64,000 bases of DNA from Halomicrobium urmianum. Lineage in GTDB: Archaea; Halobacteriota; Halobacteria; Halobacteriales; Haloarculaceae. The notes below the pieces were generated by a model. The model worked only from the letters and a program-made list of their open reading frames with translations, was not told the DNA's origin and ran no database searches. How positions within the stretch are numbered: position 1 is the first letter of the stretch; every line of letters begins with the position of its first letter. Positions 16,327 to 27,035 of the stretch are shown piece by piece. Location of the stretch: assembly GCF_020217425.1 (NCBI RefSeq), contig NZ_CP084090.1:1798001-1862000 (forward strand), given 5' to 3'. Position numbers and translations under genes: made by a program.

Positions 16327-16660
16327 GGGCGAGCATCCGGCGGCCTCCGGCCGCCGGTTCGCCGTCAGAGCGGAGCTCTGACGGGCCCTGCGTCGTTGCA
16401 CTCCGCAGGACACCGGACGCGAGCGGAGCGAGCGTCCGTCCTTTTTTCGCCACCGAACGACTCGCTTCGCTCGTCTTTCGAGCCCTCGTTCGCTTCGCTC
16501 ACGAGGACCACGTTTTTCAAGGAGCGGTTCGCGCGGAGCGCGAACCCGACGTGGTTCGAAAGACGGCGAAGCCGTCTTTCGTCATCACGAGGGAGCTTCG
16601 TTCTCTCGAACGACTGAAAAAGGTGGTCTTGTCTCGCGGGTCGCTACGCTCCCCGCTCGA
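16327..16660. repeat. Hairpin-rich gene-free spacer before the thermosome 3' end
   Basis: A 300-base run of consecutive hairpins: CCGGCGGCC-TCCGGCCGCCGG near 16336, GTCAGAGC/GCTCTGAC near 16365, ACGACTCGCTTCGCTCGTC near 16459, GGTTCGCGC/GCGCGAACC near 16525, and the two-hairpin cassette GTTCGAAAGACGG...TCTCTCGAAC (16553-16611), then GAAAAAGGTGGTC. Similar modules recur near 19831, 25500, 32237, 43741 and 47758. No gene is supported here; open frames across it are arginine-rich artefacts. Confidence 0.65.
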
Positions 16661-19830: not shown

Positions 19831-19968
19831 CCGGCGGCCGGAGGCCGCCGGTTCACTTCTCGCGAGCGAAGCGAGCGAGAAGGTCGTTTTTCGCCCACGT
19901 TTTTACGAGGAGCCTCCCCGCAGGCCGACGTAGTCGGCCGAGGAGAGGTGACGAAGTAAAAAGGTGGT
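19831..19968 (-). repeat. Multi-hairpin element, copy 1
   Basis: Read on the minus strand: ACCACCTTTTT, then a hairpin built from TCCTCGGCCGAC...GTCGGCCTGCGGGGAGG, then a 24-base linker at 19881-19904 (AAAACGTGGGCGAAAAACG is its core), then a TCTCGCTCGCTTCGCTCGCGAGA hairpin, then TGAACC and a GGCGGCC/GGCCGCC hairpin. The same order and an identical linker occur at 25500-25638. It occupies part of the gene-free stretch 19671-20195. Confidence 0.75.
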
Positions 19969-19969
19969 A

Positions 19970-20040
19970 CGCCAGGACTGGGATTTGAACCCAGAGGAAG
20001 ACGTTCCGGGCGTGTGGCCTCACTTCGTTCGGCCATTCCG
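19970..20040 (-). pseudogene. Partial tRNA-Ser copy (att-like duplicate)
   Basis: On the minus strand the last 26 bases (19970-19995) are identical to the 3' end of the intact tRNA-Ser(GGA) at 20196-20277: the T-arm with TTCAAAT and the acceptor TCCTGGCG. Going upstream, similarity is patchy (GGAATGGCCGAACG, CGCCCGGAAC). The anticodon stem cannot pair well and the acceptor stem is broken, so it should not be functional. Beyond it are two hairpins, GTCAGAGC/GCTCTGAC and GTCTTGC/GCAAGAC. A tRNA 3'-end duplicate is what tyrosine-recombinase integration leaves behind. Confidence 0.6.
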
Positions 20041-20195
20041 GGGCTGCGACTTCTGTCAGAGCAAAGCTCTGACGGCGTCTTGCTCGCTGCGCTCGCAAGA
20101 CTTCCAGGGCTTCAAATCCCAGCGAAAGCGCACACTCGCTCACGGGTGCCGAGAACACGCTACGCGGTTCTCGGCGGTGTTGTTCGCGAGAGAAG

Positions 20196-20277
20196 CGCCA
20201 GGACTGGGATTTGAACCCAGAATCCCGAAAGGGAACACGCTTTCCAGGCGTGCGCCTTGCCGTTCGGCCATCCTGGC
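20196..20277 (-). tRNA. tRNA-Ser (anticodon GGA)
   Basis: Cloverleaf read on the minus strand: acceptor GCCAGGA pairs with TCCTGGC, discriminator G; D-arm GGCCGAACGGCAAGGC; anticodon stem CACGC/GCGTG with loop CTGGAAA, so the anticodon is GGA and reads UCC/UCU; long variable arm TTCCC-TTTC-GGGAT as expected for serine; T-arm CTGGG-TTCAAAT-CCCAG. CCA is not encoded. No intron is needed. Length 82 bases. Confidence 0.95.
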
Positions 20278-20305
20278 TCGCATTGGATGGTGTGCGGTCG
20301 TTCGA

Positions 20306-20518
20306 TTAAGGGCTTTCGCTTCCGAACAGCCGCGGGCGGACGACGTGTACCAGGCCGGTCGCTCCGGCGCCCACGGCGAGGGCAACGCCGAACATCGCCC
20401 AGACGCTCACGGTCGCCTCGGTCAGGAGCTGGTACCCCTGCACCAGCACGAGGAAGGAGAGCGCTCCGACGAGCCCCCACAGGAGGCTGTCTTTCGTTCG
20501 CCTTTCGATATCTAACAT
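20306..20518 (-). CDS. Small two-helix membrane protein beside tRNA-Ser
   Basis: 70 residues starting MLDIERRTKDSLLWGLVGAL. Helices about residues 12-29 (LLWGLVGALSFLVLVQGY) and 36-60 (TVSVWAMFGVALAVGAGATGLVHVV). GC content is normal for the genome, so it belongs to the host rather than to the AT-rich patch that begins just beyond its start. AGGTTAAAATCC, about 25 bases upstream of the ATG, is a plausible TATA element. Family not recognised. Confidence 0.7.
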   Translation of the reverse strand: MLDIERRTKDSLLWGLVGALSFLVLVQGYQLLTEATVSVWAMFGVALAVGAGATGLVHVVRPRLFGSESP

Positions 20519-20748
20519 GAATAATGGATTTTAACCTAGGGTCTAATGTAGAGATTGTGTATCCTGGTCAGCAATATATAATAATGTCAGTACTCGTCAA
20601 GGGTGGTCTGAGATCGGTCTAGAGAACCACTTATTTGAAGTATATACGAGATGGCTGAAAACACTCCAGATATTATTGTGACTAAACCTGAGGTCATCGT
20701 TATTACATCGTAAATATCTGAGCTGTTATTCTGGTGGCTCCTTGCAAT

Positions 20749-21207
20749 TCAACTATTGGTTTCTACAGTGGTTGATAGGCTATCAGTACCCAATTCCACA
20801 GGTGTGTCAGTTGGATTCGGTGTAACTCTATCAGGCGTTTCTGTGGAATCTATTTCTCTAACGGTACTTGCTTCCGTTTTAGTAGAGGTGGCTTCACTCA
20901 CTGACGTATTAATAGCATCTACAGTAACATTGTTTCCATTTATAGTATCGGTAGACATACCAGTTTGAGAAACATCTGTGTCAACTGTGGTAGGGGACGA
21001 AGCTATTATCTGCGGGTCTTCATCAGATTCAGGACTCAAAGGAGTCGTCTTATTAATTTCTGGCCGCTGAGTAGAAGTGGTTGGTATTTCTTCTCCAGTT
21101 GGGCTTTGGCTATACGGTCGGATAGAGCCGATAGCAATCCCGATCGTCAAGGCGGCGAAGATAATCGATATAACAGCCCAAAACCGCCAGTCAAGCCGTA
21201 AGGACAT
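20749..21207 (-). CDS. Ser/Thr-rich single-anchor surface protein, atypical composition
   Basis: 152 residues from MSLRLDWRFWAVISIIFAAL. One N-terminal hydrophobic segment (WAVISIIFAALTIGIAIGS) could be a signal anchor with no cleavage site seen. The rest is low-complexity Ser, Thr, Pro, Asp and Glu, with three N-glycosylation sequons (NKT, NVT, NTS). Extracytoplasmic orientation is likely. Codon use is visibly AT-rich, unlike neighbours, and the flanks 20519-20748 and 21208-21390 are non-coding and also AT-rich. These traits point to horizontally acquired or decaying DNA next to the tRNA-Ser att-like site. No family is recognised. Confidence 0.6.
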   Translation of the reverse strand: MSLRLDWRFWAVISIIFAALTIGIAIGSIRPYSQSPTGEEIPTTSTQRPEINKTTPLSPESDEDPQIIASSPTTVDTDVSQTGMSTDTINGNNVTVDAINTSVSEATSTKTEASTVREIDSTETPDRVTPNPTDTPVELGTDSLSTTVETNS

Positions 21208-21390
21208 AATGTCTGCCACCACGGGGAAGTCTATCCATGAGCGGTGATACTCCCCGGCCCCTAAAGGGCGTTATCAATACACATACGTTAGAAATGCCTG
21301 TCCTCCATGAAAATAGCGTGCCAGGTTATAACAATCGGCCTATTGACCAGACATAAAAAGAAACGACAGGGAGCGACAGATTCTATACAG

Positions 21391-21768
21391 CTATTTCGTT
21401 GCTATTGCCTCGATCTCGACGGCGACGCCCTTGGGGAGTTCGTCGACGCCGACGGCGCTTCGGGCCGGCGGGTCCTCGTCGAAGAAGCACTGGTAGGCGT
21501 CGTTCATCTCGTCGAAGTCGTCGATGTCGTCGAGGAAGACCGTCACCTTCAGCACGTCGTCCATGCCCGCGTCGGCGGCGTCGAGGACGGCCGCGACGTT
21601 CTCCAGGGCCTGCTCGGTCTGGACGTCGACTGCGGCGTCGTCGAGCAGGTCGCCGTCGGGCGTGAGGGGAATCTGGCCCGCGGTGAACACGAGGTCGTCG
21701 GTGGTAGTCGCCTGACTGTACGCGCCGACCGCGGCGGGCGCGGCGTCGGTGCTGACCGTACGCTTCAT
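21391..21768 (-). CDS. RidA-family reactive intermediate deaminase
   Basis: 125 residues starting MKRTVSTDAAPAAVGAYSQA. RidA signatures: GAYSQATTTDDLVFTAGQIPL at 15-35, EQALENVAAVLDAA, LKVTVFLDDIDDF, then RSAVGVDELPKGVAVEIEAIA with the substrate-binding Arg and Glu. It hydrolyses reactive enamines/imines, such as 2-aminoacrylate or 2-aminocrotonate, formed by PLP enzymes. A threonine ammonia-lyase gene lies about 0.6 kb away on the same strand, which makes exactly such intermediates; the pairing is functionally sensible though a membrane protein gene lies between them. Confidence 0.94.
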   Translation of the reverse strand: MKRTVSTDAAPAAVGAYSQATTTDDLVFTAGQIPLTPDGDLLDDAAVDVQTEQALENVAAVLDAADAGMDDVLKVTVFLDDIDDFDEMNDAYQCFFDEDPPARSAVGVDELPKGVAVEIEAIATK

Positions 21769-21831
21769 AGCGGAGAGGCGGCGGCCACGCCCTTAAAATC
21801 GCCTTCCCGGTCGCAGTCTGCGACCGGGCGA

Positions 21832-22287
21832 CTACAATGGCAGGTTGGCGAACATGAACGCTAGGGCGACGAGGAAGACGGTTACCGTCGCGACGAGGGC
21901 GTACCAGAGGACGCCGGCGGCGAGGACGATCCGGCCGTCCAGTCCGTCGCCGTGGGGCGTCCAGGTTCCTCGCCGGGGCAGGACGCCGACTGCGCCGGCC
22001 GCACCGGCGGCCGGGACGAGGACGTTCGAGAGAGCGATACCGACGAGTATCAGTCCCGCCTCGCCGCCATCGATGGCGCCGGACTCGTTGACCAGTACGA
22101 TTACCACGAGGTAGGCGGCGATCTGAACGGCGATGAGACCGACCCCGACGAGCGGGTAGTTCAGCGTTAGGCGATCAGTCGGCCAAGAGAGCAGCGCGCG
22201 GAACCGTTCGGCCGCCAGCAGCGGGGCCATCGCCAGCAGGACGACCGCGGCGAAGAGGAGGACGAAGGGGGCGAGCTGCGAGACCAT
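21832..22287 (-). CDS. Four-helix membrane protein, unknown
   Basis: 151 residues starting MVSQLAPFVLLFAAVVLLAM. Hydrophobic segments about 5-26, 42-66 (LTLNYPLVGVGLIAVQIAAYLVVIVLV), 75-100 (AGLILVGIALSNVLVPAAGAAGAVGVL) and 120-145 (IVLAAGVLWYALVATVTVFLVALAF). Loops are short; a WTPHGDGLDG loop faces one side. I do not recognise the family. It lies between ridA and the threonine ammonia-lyase gene on the same strand, separated by 63 and 50 bases, so a shared transcript is possible. Confidence 0.7.
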   Translation of the reverse strand: MVSQLAPFVLLFAAVVLLAMAPLLAAERFRALLSWPTDRLTLNYPLVGVGLIAVQIAAYLVVIVLVNESGAIDGGEAGLILVGIALSNVLVPAAGAAGAVGVLPRRGTWTPHGDGLDGRIVLAAGVLWYALVATVTVFLVALAFMFANLPL

Positions 22288-22337
22288 GGGCGGCGGTCCG
22301 AGTCTCGGAGAATAAGTCTTCTCCCCGCCGTTTCAGA

Positions 22338-23549
22338 TCACACGAGTACTTCGACCTCGTAGCCCTCGGACTCCAGCGCGTCGAGCAGGCGGTCGACGTG
22401 GTCGGGGCCGCGGGTCTCGAGATCGAGGATCACCTCGGCGTCGTCCATCGCCACGTCCCGCGAGGTGCGGTCGTGCTCGATGCCGTAGATGTTGACCTGC
22501 TCGGCCGAGAGGACGCTCACCAGGTCGTCCAGCGTCCCGGGTCGGTCCTCCAGTACCGTGCGGATCTTGAGGTAGCGGCCGGTCTCGACGAGTCCGCGGA
22601 CGATCACGTTCGTCAGCGTGTTCAGGTCGATGTTGCCGCCCGACAGGAGGGGCACGATCGTCTCGTCGTCCTCGTAGTCGAACTGTCCGGCCAGCAGGGC
22701 GGCCAGCGGCACGGCGCCGGCCCCCTCGGCGAGCGTCTTGGCCCGCTCCAGGAGGCGGGTCAGCGCGACGGCGATCTCCGAGTCGGAGACGGTCACGACC
22801 TCGTCGACGCGCTCCTCGATCACCGCGAAGGTCTTCTCGCCGACGGTTCGCGTCGCGATGCCGTCGGCGATGGTCTCGACGCGGTCACGCTCGACGCGTC
22901 GGCCCTTCCGCAGCGACTCCGCGACGCTGGAGGCGCCTTCGGCCTGGACGCCGACGACGCGGATCGACTCGTCCTTGCCCTTCAGGGCGGTGGCGACGCC
23001 GCTGATCAGCCCGCCGCCGCCGATGGGCACGATCACGGTGTCGACCTTGGGCAGGTCCTCGTAGATCTCCAGGCCGATCGTCCCCTGGCCGGCCATCACG
23101 TCCCAGTCGTCGAAGGCGTGGACGTACGTCCGACCCTGATCGCGCTCGATCTCGTGGGCGCGCTCGGCCGCCGCGTCGTAGTCCCGCCCGTGGAGGACGA
23201 CGTTCCCGCCGTAGCTCTCGGTCGCCTGGACCTTCGAGACCGGCGCGTGCTCGGGCATCACGATGGTCGCGTCGACGCCGATTCGCGAGGCCGCCAGCGC
23301 CACGCCCTGGGCGTGGTTGCCCGCGCTGGCCGTGACGACGCCGGCCTCGCGCTCCGACTCCGAGAGCGTCTTGATCCGGTTGGTCGCGCCGCGGATCTTG
23401 AACGAGCCCGTCCGCTGGAGCAGCTCCAGCTTCAGATGGACGTCTGCGCCCGTCATCGCCGAGAAGGTGTGGGAGTACTCCTGGGTCGTGTGGCGGGCCG
23501 TCTCGGCGACCCGGTCCCGGGCCGCCACCACGTCCTCGAACGAGAGCAT
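22338..23549 (-). CDS. ilvA: Threonine ammonia-lyase with C-terminal ACT domain
   Basis: 403 residues from MLSFEDVVAARDRVAETARH. PLP-binding lysine in RTGSFKIRGATNRI near residue 54; phosphate-binding glycine loop VPIGGGGLISGVA near residue 180; SAGNHAQGVA earlier. The last 80 residues form an ACT domain (LKIRTVLEDRPGTLDDLVSVLSAEQ). It converts threonine to 2-oxobutanoate and ammonia, feeding isoleucine synthesis or threonine catabolism; the ACT domain suggests allosteric control. A palindromic TATA box GTATATAC stands 25-32 bases before the ATG, which excludes the longer reading to 23696. Confidence 0.93.
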   Translation of the reverse strand: MLSFEDVVAARDRVAETARHTTQEYSHTFSAMTGADVHLKLELLQRTGSFKIRGATNRIKTLSESEREAGVVTASAGNHAQGVALAASRIGVDATIVMPEHAPVSKVQATESYGGNVVLHGRDYDAAAERAHEIERDQGRTYVHAFDDWDVMAGQGTIGLEIYEDLPKVDTVIVPIGGGGLISGVATALKGKDESIRVVGVQAEGASSVAESLRKGRRVERDRVETIADGIATRTVGEKTFAVIEERVDEVVTVSDSEIAVALTRLLERAKTLAEGAGAVPLAALLAGQFDYEDDETIVPLLSGGNIDLNTLTNVIVRGLVETGRYLKIRTVLEDRPGTLDDLVSVLSAEQVNIYGIEHDRTSRDVAMDDAEVILDLETRGPDHVDRLLDALESEGYEVEVLV

Positions 23550-23573
23550 ACACGACCTTGCAGGTCCCGACTT

Positions 23574-23581
23574 GTATATAC
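23574..23581 (-). promoter_or_regulatory. TATA box for threonine ammonia-lyase
   Basis: GTATATAC, perfectly palindromic, 25-32 bases before the ATG at 23549. Nothing else recognisable is seen in the 315-base divergent gap to 23865, apart from a GTGAAAGTGAAAGTG stutter near 23715. Confidence 0.6.
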
Positions 23582-23864
23582 TGGCGGCGGGTCCCCACCG
23601 GGCTCCCGTGGACACGTCTGTCTCTCTCGTGTGAAAACCGTGAGGGGAACGCATGGAGGATGCGACTGCAAGCGTGATCAGCGCCGGGTTCGACATAAAC
23701 CTGCGCGGTGTACGGTGAAAGTGAAAGTGCAGGACGGCGCGGTGATGAGCGGGCTGTCAGACGGGCGTCGAACGCGCGTCAGTCGGGATCCGCGCGAGCG
23801 GAGCGAGCGCGGCGAGGCGGCCGACAGGCAGAACCGTTTTGTCCGGGCTGACGCTGGAAGGGAC

Positions 23865-25499
23865 ATGGACGCCTGGCAGCGGCGGACGGCCCAGTACGTC
23901 GCGGGGCTTGCGGGGCTCATGCTGGCGTTCGCCGTCGCGTACGACGCGGGGATGCGCTACGTAGAACACGACCCGAATCCGTTCCTGCGCTCCATGCGGT
24001 TCGTCGTCGAGACGTTCACGACGACGGGCTACGGCTCCGAGGCCCCCTGGGAGACCGACGCGATGCGGCTGTTCGTGATGATCATGGACCTGACGGGCGT
24101 CGTCGTCATCTTCCTGGCGCTACCCGTGTTCGTCGTGCCGCTGTTCGAGGACGCCATTTCGACGACGGTACCGACGAGCGTCGACGACGACTGCGAGGAC
24201 CACGTCGTCGTGTGCACGCTCACGCCCCGCGGGGAGACGCTGATCGACGAACTGGACTCGTGGGGCGTCGACCACGTCGTCGTCGAACCCGACCGCGAGC
24301 GCGCGGTCGACCACTACGAGGACGGCTACCGGGTGATCCACGCCGATCCGCAGTCGGTCGACGGACTGCGGGCCGCCAACGTCGCCCGGGCCCGGGCGGT
24401 CGTCGCCGACGCCTCCGACCAGGCCAACACCAGCACCGTCCTCACGGCGAAGGAGGTCGACGACAGCGTGCGGGTGGTGAGCGTCGTCGAGGAGCCACAC
24501 CGGGCGACCTACCACGAACTGGCCGGCGCCGACGCCGTCCTCTCGCCGCGGGCCGTCCTCGGTGAGAGCCTCGCCGCCAAGGTGACCACCGGCGTCACCG
24601 CCGAGGCCGGCGAGGACGTCGACGTCGGCGAGGACGTCGACCTCGCGGAACTGCTCGTCCACCGCGGGAGCGACCTCGCGGGTCAGACGCTGGCCGAGAG
24701 CGACGTCGGCGACGACTCCGGCGTCAACGTCGTCGGCGCGTGGGTCCGCGGCGAGTTCCGAAGCCCGCCCGACCCCGACACTGAACTGACCGGCGGGACC
24801 GTCCTGCTGGTCGCCGGCCGCGAGGACCGCCTGAAGCGCCTGCGGGAACTGACCCTGTCGGACGTGCGCTCCGTCCGCAGCGGCCGGACAGTCGTCGTCG
24901 GCCACGGCGAGGTGGGCGAGACCGTCGCCGCTCGACTCGACGACGCCGGCCTGCCCTACACCGTGCTCGACCGGACCGACGAACCCGGCGTGGACGTGGT
25001 GGGCGACGCCACGGAACCGGCCGCCCAGCGGGAGGCCGGCGTCCCCGAGGCCCAGACGGCCGTCCTCGCCATCCCCGACGACGCCGACGCCGAGTTCGCC
25101 ACCCTCGTCGCGCGCGACCTCAATCCCGACGTCGAGGTCGTCGCCCGGGCCGAGGCGACCGAGAACGTCCGGAAGATGTACCGCGCCGGCGCCGACTACG
25201 TCCTCTCGCTGGCGACCGTCAGCGGCCGCATGCTCGCCTCGACCATCCTCGACGGCGAGGAGGTCGTCTCACCGGACTCCCAGGTCGAGATCGTCAGGAC
25301 CAGCGCCGACGCCCTCGCCGGACAGACGCTCGGCGACGCCGACGTCCGCGCCCGCACCGGCTGTACCGTCATCGCCGTCGAGCGCGACGGCGCGGTCCTG
25401 ACCGACGTCGGCCCCGACCTCCGCGTCCGACCCGCCGACGAACTCGTCGTGGCCGGTACCGACGCGGACGTCAATCGCTTCACCGCCACCTTTTCCTAA
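23865..25499 (+). CDS. Potassium channel-like protein with two RCK (TrkA) modules
   Basis: 544 residues from MDAWQRRTAQYVAGLAGLML. First helix about 10-30, pore helix and filter FRSMRFVVETFTTTGYGSE (about 45-63, TTTGYG as selectivity filter), second helix about 72-100. Then TrkA-N (HVVVCTLTPRGETLIDEL), TrkA-C (about 260-330, AELLVHRGSDLAGQ), a second TrkA-N (TVVVGHGEVGETVAARL) and a second TrkA-C to the end. This is the two-helix MthK-like plan with tandem RCK units; NAD(H), Ca or nucleotides gate such channels. In the first TrkA-N the GxGxxG is degenerate (TLTPRG). A PhoU-TrkA-C protein lies 1.5 kb downstream. Confidence 0.9.
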   Translation: MDAWQRRTAQYVAGLAGLMLAFAVAYDAGMRYVEHDPNPFLRSMRFVVETFTTTGYGSEAPWETDAMRLFVMIMDLTGVVVIFLALPVFVVPLFEDAISTTVPTSVDDDCEDHVVVCTLTPRGETLIDELDSWGVDHVVVEPDRERAVDHYEDGYRVIHADPQSVDGLRAANVARARAVVADASDQANTSTVLTAKEVDDSVRVVSVVEEPHRATYHELAGADAVLSPRAVLGESLAAKVTTGVTAEAGEDVDVGEDVDLAELLVHRGSDLAGQTLAESDVGDDSGVNVVGAWVRGEFRSPPDPDTELTGGTVLLVAGREDRLKRLRELTLSDVRSVRSGRTVVVGHGEVGETVAARLDDAGLPYTVLDRTDEPGVDVVGDATEPAAQREAGVPEAQTAVLAIPDDADAEFATLVARDLNPDVEVVARAEATENVRKMYRAGADYVLSLATVSGRMLASTILDGEEVVSPDSQVEIVRTSADALAGQTLGDADVRARTGCTVIAVERDGAVLTDVGPDLRVRPADELVVAGTDADVNRFTATFS

Positions 25500-25638
25500 C
25501 CACCTTTTTGCTGCGGGGGGTGTCCTCGCGAGCCTTCGGCTCGCTGCGGGCGCCCCCGCTTGCAAAAACGTGGGCGAAAAACGACCTCCGAGGCGCACCG
25601 AAGGCGCGCTCGGAGTGAACCGCCGCCTTCGGCGGCGG
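25500..25638 (+). repeat. Multi-hairpin element, copy 2
   Basis: Begins CCACCTTTTTG immediately after the channel stop codon. Then come a GCGAGCCTTCGGCTCGC hairpin with GGGGG/CCCCC flanks, the 24-base linker at 25564-25587 identical to the one at 19881-19904, a CTCCGAGGCGC...GCGCGCTCGGAG hairpin, TGAACC, and CCGCCGCC-TTC-GGCGGCGG. It lies between convergent genes, so it may end transcription of both. Confidence 0.75.
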
Positions 25639-25655
25639 ATGCTTGACGCTCTCTC

Positions 25656-26801
25656 TTACCGCTCTTCGATCGGCGTGAACTCGACGTCCTCGGGGTCGGG
25701 ACCGGTGTAGCGGGCCCGCGGGCGGATCAGGCGGTTGTCCTCGATGTACTCCAGGACGTGAGCGATCCAGCCGCCGACGCGGGACATCGCGAAGATGGGG
25801 GTGTAGATGTCGATCGGGATGCCCATCTGGTAGTAGGTGGAGGCGGAGTAGAAGTCGACGTTGGGGGCGAGGCCCTTCTCCTCCATCATGTACTCCTCGA
25901 TGGTGGTGGACATCTCGTACCACTTCGTCGAGCCGGCGGCCTCGCCGAGTTCCTTGGAGCGTTCGCCGAGGATCTTCGCGCGCGGGTCCTTGACGTCGTA
26001 GACGCGGTGGCCGAACCCGGAGACGCGCCGGCCCTCGTCGAGCGCGTTCTGGACCCACTCGAGGGGGTCGCTGTCGGCGTCGTCGACCTCCTTGAGCATG
26101 CGCATGACGTCCTGGTTGGCGCCGCCGTGCAGCGGGCCCTTCAGGGTCCCGATGGCGGCGGTGACGGAGCTGTGGAGGTCGGACAGCGTCGAGGCGGTCA
26201 CCATCGCCGAGAACGTCGAGGCGTTGAGGCCGTGGTCGGCGTGGAGCACGAGCGCCATGTCGAACGTCTCCGCGAGGACGTCGTCGGGCACCTCGTCGTT
26301 GAGCATGTAGAGGAAGTTCGCGGCGTGGCCGAGGTCCTCGCGGGGGGTGACGGGCTCGTCCCCGTCCCGGAGGCGCGCGAAGGCGGCCAGGATCGTCGGG
26401 ATCTTGGCGGTGATCCGGCGACCCTTGCGGAGGTTGACGGCCTCGTCGGTAGGGTCGTGGTCGTCGCCGTCGTCGTCGAACGCCGACAGTGTCGAGACGG
26501 CGGTCCGCAGCGCTGCCATGGGGTTCTCGTCGGCTTCGGCCAGCGCCCGGACCTGGTCGAGGACGGCGTCGTCGACCTCGCGTTCGGCGGCCATCTGGTC
26601 GGCGAACTCCGCGAGCTCCGCCTCGTCGGGGAGGTGGCCGTACCAGAGGAGGTACAGCACTTCCTCGTAGCTCGCGCCGCGCGCCAGGTCCTCGATGGTG
26701 TACCCGCGGTAGATGAGCCGGCCCTCGTCGCCGTCGATCCGGCTGAGCGACGATTCAGCGACGAGGACGCCCTCTAGCCCTTTCCTGAGGTCGTCTGACA
26801 T
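25656..26801 (-). CDS. Citrate synthase
   Basis: 381 residues from MSDDLRKGLEGVLVAESSLS. Citrate synthase residues: GYTIEDLARGASYEEVLYLL near 30, catalytic-region His in HADHGLNASTFSA near 190, LHGGANQDV near 223, GFGHRVYDVKDPRA near 262 and the Asp in VDFYSASTYYQMGIP near 315. It condenses acetyl-CoA with oxaloacetate, the entry step of the TCA cycle. Length and lack of N-terminal extension match archaeal/Gram-positive type II enzymes. The ATG at 26801 agrees with homologues; a longer reading adds a basic stub. It converges on the TrkA-channel gene. Confidence 0.95.
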   Translation of the reverse strand: MSDDLRKGLEGVLVAESSLSRIDGDEGRLIYRGYTIEDLARGASYEEVLYLLWYGHLPDEAELAEFADQMAAEREVDDAVLDQVRALAEADENPMAALRTAVSTLSAFDDDGDDHDPTDEAVNLRKGRRITAKIPTILAAFARLRDGDEPVTPREDLGHAANFLYMLNDEVPDDVLAETFDMALVLHADHGLNASTFSAMVTASTLSDLHSSVTAAIGTLKGPLHGGANQDVMRMLKEVDDADSDPLEWVQNALDEGRRVSGFGHRVYDVKDPRAKILGERSKELGEAAGSTKWYEMSTTIEEYMMEEKGLAPNVDFYSASTYYQMGIPIDIYTPIFAMSRVGGWIAHVLEYIEDNRLIRPRARYTGPDPEDVEFTPIEER

Positions 26802-27035
26802 ACCCTTTGATTTTCTACGTGCCCGGAAAAACATTGTCGTTTTACCGGTCGGCTAACGCGCCGGTTCGCCAGCATTTCTGCACGCGCGGGCATAAGTACC
26901 GGCAGTAGTCGAACTAAATCCAGACGTTTGTCAAAGATTCATCTATCGGGAACGGACAGTCGGCGTTACCGAACGCCGAACCGGCGGGTAGCGCCAGGGG
27001 CCACGCTTTTGAGCGCCGCCGTCCGAGGTCGATGC

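Follow-up and report, generated by a model that had tools for sequence, protein, structure and literature searches.

We analyzed a 64,000-nucleotide stretch of Halomicrobium urmianum DNA (contig NZ_CP084090.1, positions 1,798,001 to 1,862,000 of the forward strand; hereafter the window) that contains copies of a short non-coding hairpin element at the ends of genes. A reading made from the letters alone (the sequence-only reading) had placed two copies of a multi-hairpin intergenic element at 25500-25638 on the + strand and at 19831-19968 on the - strand, and both copies are present at these positions. The modules follow the claimed order in each copy, namely ACCACCTTTTT, a hairpin, the core, a second hairpin, TGAACC and a GC hairpin, and the 24 bases at 25564-25587 (+) are exactly identical to those at 19904-19881 (-), reading AAAAACGTGGGCGAAAAACGACCT. 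The window contains the 19-base core twice, and 100 dinucleotide shuffles did not produce it once.

Copy 1 lies between two convergent genes. A TrkA-like gene on the + strand ends with a TAA stop codon at 25497-25499, directly 5' of the left box ACCACCTTTTT (25499-25509, +), which supplies the 5' arm of an outer stem (CCAC, c, T5). The variable inner hairpin, HP1, follows at 25510-25563 (+). Folding and covariation identify the next segment, AAAAACGTGG (25564-25573, +), as the 3' arm of the outer stem, which pairs with 25500-25509 with one C.C mismatch. The adjoining GCGAAAAA (25574-25581, +) reads on the - strand as a TTTTTCGC tract that faces a gene named from its sequence as citrate synthase (25656-26834, -). 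A hairpin, HP2, at 25587-25614 is terminator-like on the - strand, where the hairpin is followed by TTTTTC, and the copy closes at 25616-25639 with TGAACC and the GC hairpin HP3, which on the - strand reads AGCATCC-hairpin-GGTTCAC. In copy 2, sequence and fold place the left box ACCACCTTTTT at 19958-19968, HP1 at 19905-19957 and the outer-stem 3' arm AAAAACGTGG at 19895-19904, all on the - strand; GCGAAAAA lies at 19887-19894 (-), HP2 at 19857-19881, and HP3 with TGAACC (GGTTCA on the + strand) at 19831-19855. The pieces that had been reported to recur at 16440-16629 proved to be a third copy on the - strand (16443-16627), 3' of a thermosome gene, with its box ACCACCTTTTT at 16627-16617 and AAAAACGTGG near 16508-16517. 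This copy is interrupted: an extra hairpin of about 55 bases splits the core after AAAAACGTGG, and the core resumes with TGGCGAAAAAA.

The sequence-only reading had described the conserved 24 bases as an unpaired linker between freely varying stems. The defined, dispersed, structured element with a freely varying inner stem stands, but the unpaired linker does not, because the AAAAACGTGG part of the linker closes on the CCACCTTTTT box; most of the conserved segment forms one arm of a stem, whose sequence changes together with that of the left box. Folding of both window copies on both strands gave the outer stem each time, with z scores of -4.7 to -6.1. The fold is a single long hairpin, CCAC.TTTTT[HP1]AAAAA.GTGG, with a conserved C.C mismatch beside the T5:A5 block. 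The core unit reads as three to five box bases, TTTTT, HP1, AAAAA, an octamer and AAAAA, and since the box pairs with the first bases of the octamer, the unit forms one long imperfect hairpin with inverted arms. The outer pairs change together across related elements (CCAC/GTGG, CCAT/ATGG, CGAC/GTCG, GTA/TAC and GAAC/GTTC), and among the fetched loci the octamer starts match their boxes (CGTGG/CCACC, CATGG/CCATC, CGTCG/CGACC, TCTAC/GTACC, TCTGC/GCACC and CGTTC/GAACC). We found 31 distinct combinations of box and octamer. For the two outermost positions, Watson-Crick pairing is present in 25 and 28 of these, respectively, and 2000 shuffles of the combinations never exceeded 24 and 23. The third pair is nearly invariant and therefore speaks in neither direction, and the inner two positions are mostly mismatched.

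The element belongs to a large family of short hairpins at gene ends in salt-loving archaea. A genome-wide count of the linker, which the sequence-only reading had asked for, yields 27 places for the 19-base core at two or fewer mismatches in the organism's own genome, compared with none for the reversed control. The box CCACCTTTTT occurs at 25 places (reversed control, 3), and comparison of the two match lists puts 22 of the 25 just left of a core, so we rejected the idea that it is a general terminator box. An exact 17-base core was found in 36 of the 57 family genomes, with no control matches. The general form CCTTTTT-N25..55-AAAAA-N7..10-AAAAA is present in 114 of 145 Halobacteria genomes; the reversed control gave 7 matches in 4 genomes. 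Several octamer types stand side by side in single genomes, for example G153 and G053. In the Haloarcula-group genomes G005, G126, G145 and G153 there is a homogeneous TCTACGCT subfamily whose HP1 flanks are nearly identical (ACGTCACCCCCTCTCC...GGGGAGCGGGTTCG), and this homogeneity suggests a recent expansion. Three non-haloarchaeal records and five viral contigs also match the core exactly, but these matches have neither box nor hairpins and look like chance, and viral or plasmid carriers were rejected, the former on the strength of those five contigs. The plasmid search returned one haloarchaeal 22-base match and otherwise GC-rich hairpin noise. Literature searches for haloarchaeal small repeats, attachment sites and terminators, covering papers outside subscription, did not turn up a description of the element.

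For the analysis of placement we used 108 distinct copies, all with the CGTGGGCG core or a form within two mismatches of it. Duplicate contexts, eight non-haloarchaeal or viral chance matches (L036, L038, L039 and L114-L118), and copies less than 120 bp from the start or less than 300 bp from the end of a locus had been dropped beforehand. Copies that lie in genes or lack flanking hairpins, the arrangement the sequence-only reading had named as incompatible with an element, are not seen among the haloarchaeal copies: a gene call overlaps only 1 of the 108 (L099), and that call extends upstream of its likely start codon. On the left side, 46 copies have a direct repeat of the gene end, 28 lie no more than 8 nt past a rightward gene's stop codon, 6 face the start of a leftward gene at 39-40 bp, 3 are at a tRNA gene called by ARAGORN, 18 have some other neighbor, and 7 have no recognizable box. 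The box thus placed, within 8 nt after a stop codon, accounts for 28/108 copies; for the other T5 tracts of these loci the figure is 4 of 147. Only 6 of 107 copies lie between divergent genes. At the six loci with a leftward gene (L010, L047, L066, L068, L107 and L111), the CCACC end is exactly 39-40 bp upstream of the start codon, a position immediately 5' of the expected beginning of a haloarchaeal promoter. T5 tracts are present on both strands of the element, and in the 28 copies close to a stop codon a T5(C) tract stands shortly after it. In Haloferax volcanii, T5C terminated 95% of transcripts in vivo (PMC7237163). Given the placement at gene ends, the T5 tracts on both strands and the Haloferax T5C result, bidirectional transcription termination is a likely role of the element.

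Direct repeats of 24-120 bp, which duplicate the end of the gene, flank 46 of the 108 copies. Controls gave 13 of 424 for positions shifted by 650-900 bp and 9 of 199 for the ends of other genes; some of the control hits represent other repeats that these loci contain. With few exceptions, copies at protein genes have the intact gene to their right, on the - strand, and the left-hand repeat mostly stops 0-8 bp from the CCACC box. Of 36 usable pairs, 23 have a repeat that ends no more than 5 nt from the stop codon, a count for which 8 of 44 rows were omitted (2 tRNA loci, and 6 in which the next stop is far off or in another tandem unit). In the 33 ungapped pairs with more than 20 coding bases, the two copies of the gene end differ at codon positions 1, 2 and 3 in the ratio 17:9:64. 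Had a remnant drifted freely beside a conserved gene, positions 1 and 2 would be expected to differ about equally often, and position 3 no more than about twice as often as either. The observed pattern departs from this expectation, indicating that some of the divergence dates from a time when the two versions were both coding. A target duplication that simply decayed was accordingly rejected as the sole cause of the differences, on a set of pairs that are not all independent. The exception to the usual 3' ends is L099 (G000:C1:3230000-3237000), where the element is flanked by two versions of the 5' end of a Gfo/Idh-type oxidoreductase gene, which agree at 38 of 45 bases. A larger integrated unit with distant repeats was also considered and rejected: when the left flanks of 55 non-repeat copies were compared with the rest of their loci, clear distant repeats appeared only at tRNA loci and at the double element L096.

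Comparison of related genomes reveals presence and absence of the element at given sites among close relatives (gene names at these loci are our reading of the translations). At a sufS-like gene, G052 and G039 carry the element between identical 69-base repeats, and G025 has a single site. At the glutaredoxin (grx) gene, G053 is occupied and G040, G005 and G026 are empty. In G053 the remnant is followed by the native 3' flank (untranslated region, UTR), and at the end of the gene proper there are a new UTR, a hairpin and the element. The POR-beta gene carries an element after its stop codon in several genera, and within one genus G005 has the CGTGGGCG type, G026 and G053 have the TCTACGCT type, and G040 has none; this type swap keeps the same HP2 and HP3, with small differences in the HP2 of G053. 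There is no element after the citrate synthase gene, the neighbor of copy 1, in G174 and G216. Tandem arrays were found as well. Those in G039 consist of 154-bp units at the glutaredoxin gene and 182-bp units at spt5, and an array in G025 at an HMG-CoA-synthase-like gene contains four element cores at 151-bp spacing. In the latter array, synonymous codon choice is the same in the gene tail and the outermost remnant, and a different choice is common to the two remnants in the middle. Among 146 genomes, the middle set occurs elsewhere only in G052 and G039, each time at the genome's own copy of the locus. The gene bodies of G025 and G052 at this locus differ at 43 of 1300 positions and the last 36 positions at 4, a contrast that is suggestive but not strong. 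Unequal crossover, gene conversion or repeated import of the tail could each have contributed to the G025 array. Because of the occupied and empty sites, the tandem arrays and the type swaps, the element appears to be mobile, moving between genes.

Taken together, the dispersed, covarying hairpin at gene ends is best read as a haloarchaeal family of small non-coding elements that act as bidirectional terminators and are mobile, entering the 3' ends of genes along with the last codons, a reading to which we assign a probability of roughly 60%. An RNA polymerase arriving on either strand would meet a T5 tract, which would halt transcription from both sides of the gene ends. On entering the 3' end of a gene, the element would bring along a new terminator and a copy of the final codons of that gene; the gene would therefore stay whole, and its displaced native end would persist as a remnant next to the CCACC box. 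The mechanism that we favor is tail exchange by recombination: DNA composed of a tail and an element would recombine into the matching tail of a gene, most likely by homologous recombination or by a tyrosine-type site-specific recombinase. The lengths of the repeats alone would fit a tyrosine recombinase, since the attachment (att) sites of archaeal elements are reported to range from 8 to 243 bp (PMC8371274).

Several observations weigh against this interpretation. By the test used, 62 of the 108 copies have no repeat, and copies directly after stop codons need another route of entry or loss of the remnant. The six copies upstream of a start codon do not have a 3' end on that side. At the second site of L110, G025 has the 3' hairpin and T tract without the core, which makes the right boundary of the moving unit uncertain. 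The pairs behind the codon-position ratio are not independent (L087/L089, L029/L041 and two units at L077 are related), and later allelic recombination could yield the same pattern. No free form was found, and no moving enzyme with the profiles used, which covered RVT_1 and the Y1 transposase.

Among the alternatives, perhaps the most weight falls on an ordinary terminator with vertical inheritance, which would be exchanged solely through homologous recombination of whole gene regions and whose repeats would stem from local tandem duplication, although we regard it as improbable. The anatomy resembles that of a terminator, the element recurs at the same genes in several genera (POR-beta, grx, HMG-CoA synthase and nuoI), and unequal crossover could make tandem arrays grow. 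Such inheritance is difficult to reconcile with empty sites within genera, or with the best DNA match of copy 1 being another locus in the same genome (85% over about 128 bp) while the orthologous locus in G174 and G216 lacks the element, and the first duplication with an element inside it would still require an event. Somewhat less probable again is a miniature inverted-repeat transposable element (MITE) or small mobile repeat (SMR), with terminal inverted repeats, a target duplication and mobilization in trans by an insertion sequence (IS) transposase. The box and core do form inverted repeats, copies are dispersed, hairpin inserts are nested in them, and Haloquadratum SMRs, which are of similar size, have inverted repeats (PMC3119063). 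Against this reading, the direct repeats vary in length from 24 to 120 bp, usually end at a stop codon and differ mainly at third codon positions, and no autonomous parent was found. The Y1 transposase (PF01797), the sole transposase family profiled, matches in 34 of the 57 family genomes, with no match in G048, G014, G002, G025, G053, G040 and G005, seven genomes that all carry the core and several of which are rich in the element; a Y1/IS605 route was rejected for this reason.

The sequence-only reading had favored an RNA recognition site or a small stable RNA bound by a protein, which we now consider doubtful. Conserved mismatches, an apparent internal loop in the variable stem and the covariation are consistent with such an RNA. 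Part of the conserved sequence, AAAAACGTGG, is paired, however, and the anatomy is nearly symmetric on the two strands, as expected of DNA or of termination and not of one RNA. A search of Rfam gave no family at gathering score for the element, the only such family in the window being tRNA; the single other hit was at chance level (E 0.9). Least probable by far is retro-insertion of a 3' fragment of mRNA. The duplicated piece resembles an mRNA tail, with codons, a stop, a hairpin and a T tract, and the left junction often has a few extra bases, but the reverse transcriptase profile RVT_1 (PF00078) matches in 0 of the 57 family genomes, compared with 3 of 14 control genomes, and the route was rejected.

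Comparison with known systems places the element near several of them. Integron attC sites are imperfect hairpins with a variable stem directly after a stop codon. The element shares these features, but no attC core boxes are seen in it, and it occurs as single scattered copies and not in a cassette array. REP sequences are palindromic and extragenic and lie at gene 3' ends. REP/BIME sequences, PATEs and IS200/IS605 ends resemble the element in these respects, and the element differs from them by its inverted terminal arms and long gene-end repeats; co-occurrence does not require the Y1 transposase of IS200/IS605 and PATEs, which is missing from some carrier genomes. Nor does a reverse transcriptase match occur in the family genomes, as a retroelement would lead one to expect. 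The Haloferax T5C terminators (PMC7237163) likewise have a T5 tract after the gene, often T5C; here the T tracts lie in a covarying palindrome with a conserved octamer, and the entire structure is dispersed.

According to PMC3119063, SMR-A and SMR-B of Haloquadratum walsbyi are about 80-110 bp long, non-coding and present in many copies, with inverted terminal repeats and a mobilization described as enigmatic. The element is like them in size, non-coding nature, inverted terminal repeats and copy number. According to the same paper, SMRs make no target duplication and their targets, including those of SMR-A, are mostly PATEs or IS605 elements, whereas the element lies at gene ends and has direct repeats at the 46 copies described above. 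Archaeal integrative elements that use tyrosine recombinases at the 3' ends of tRNA and protein genes (PMC8371274) are similar in that the gene is kept whole by an element-borne end, with a displaced remnant and direct repeats. Direct repeats of the gene 3' end with a reconstituted gene are found here too, and in most usable pairs (23 of 36) the block of identity ends at the end of the gene. The element, in contrast, is only 60-150 bp (longer with nested inserts), too short for an integrase; no integrase or other gene is seen in it, and one core sequence serves many target genes in place of one specific site.

Duplicated gene ends are also found at tRNA genes. The window contains an intact tRNA-Ser (GGA) gene at 20195-20277 (-), the 3' end of which (20195-20220) is present in an identical 26-base copy at 19970-19995 (-), ending 2 bases before the CCACC box of copy 2. 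Copy 2 does not directly follow the intact tRNA gene; it follows this duplicate, which lies about 200 bases downstream of the intact gene with hairpins and an inverted T-arm piece (GGGATTTGAA) between. Reading by eye, we found the same layout at L037, L113, L042, L028, L062, L093 and L086, and at least 5 of the 18 copies with some other left neighbor (L004, L037, L086, L093 and L113) follow a tRNA 3'-end duplicate. These tRNA genes have a copy of their own 3' end about 120-250 bp downstream, with hairpins and an inverted T-arm piece (GGATTTGAA) between. We take the tRNA 3'-end duplicates as a second family of small gene-end insertions.

Smaller modules accompany the element. The HP3 module AGCATCC-hairpin-GGTTCAC occurs in the window at 16340-16365, 19831-19855 and 25616-25645, and at L119. 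It is also found without the core, as at the sufS-like gene of G025, whose empty site carries a related form, and may be a separate terminator module. Extra small hairpin pairs lie within the element, in the core or in HP1, at 16443-16627 in the window and at L001, L008, L028, L042 and L120. One such nested pair is present in G039 and not in its close relative G052: at the sufS-like gene, G039 has an additional hairpin of about 50 bases within the core. These pairs are nested mini-elements. The end of the TrkA-like gene (25485-25509) reads ...GCCACCTTTTCC TAA CCACCTTTTT, with a second box-like string within the last codons that is perhaps an older box, read through.

For annotation, the element sites mark likely transcript ends, and they account for duplicate gene and tRNA ends, which might otherwise be taken for attachment sites of proviruses. 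More tentatively, the family may reflect an unrecognized haloarchaeal system of gene-tail exchange, in which tiny gene-less cassettes consisting of a gene tail, a stop codon and a terminator hairpin would be moved by a host- or trans-encoded recombinase that recognizes the covarying hairpin. The last 10-40 codons of housekeeping genes would be replaced repeatedly, units would pile up in tandem with the newest beside the gene, and a sister family would act at tRNA 3' ends. We consider this extension possible, with the odds against it. The findings make it testable what moves small gene-less haloarchaeal repeats, whose mobilization is called enigmatic for Haloquadratum in PMC3119063. If the reading is correct, gene-less elements are rewriting the ends of haloarchaeal genes; they would rank with the smallest known integrating elements, would link termination directly to mobility and would provide a visible route for the exchange of gene tails between species.

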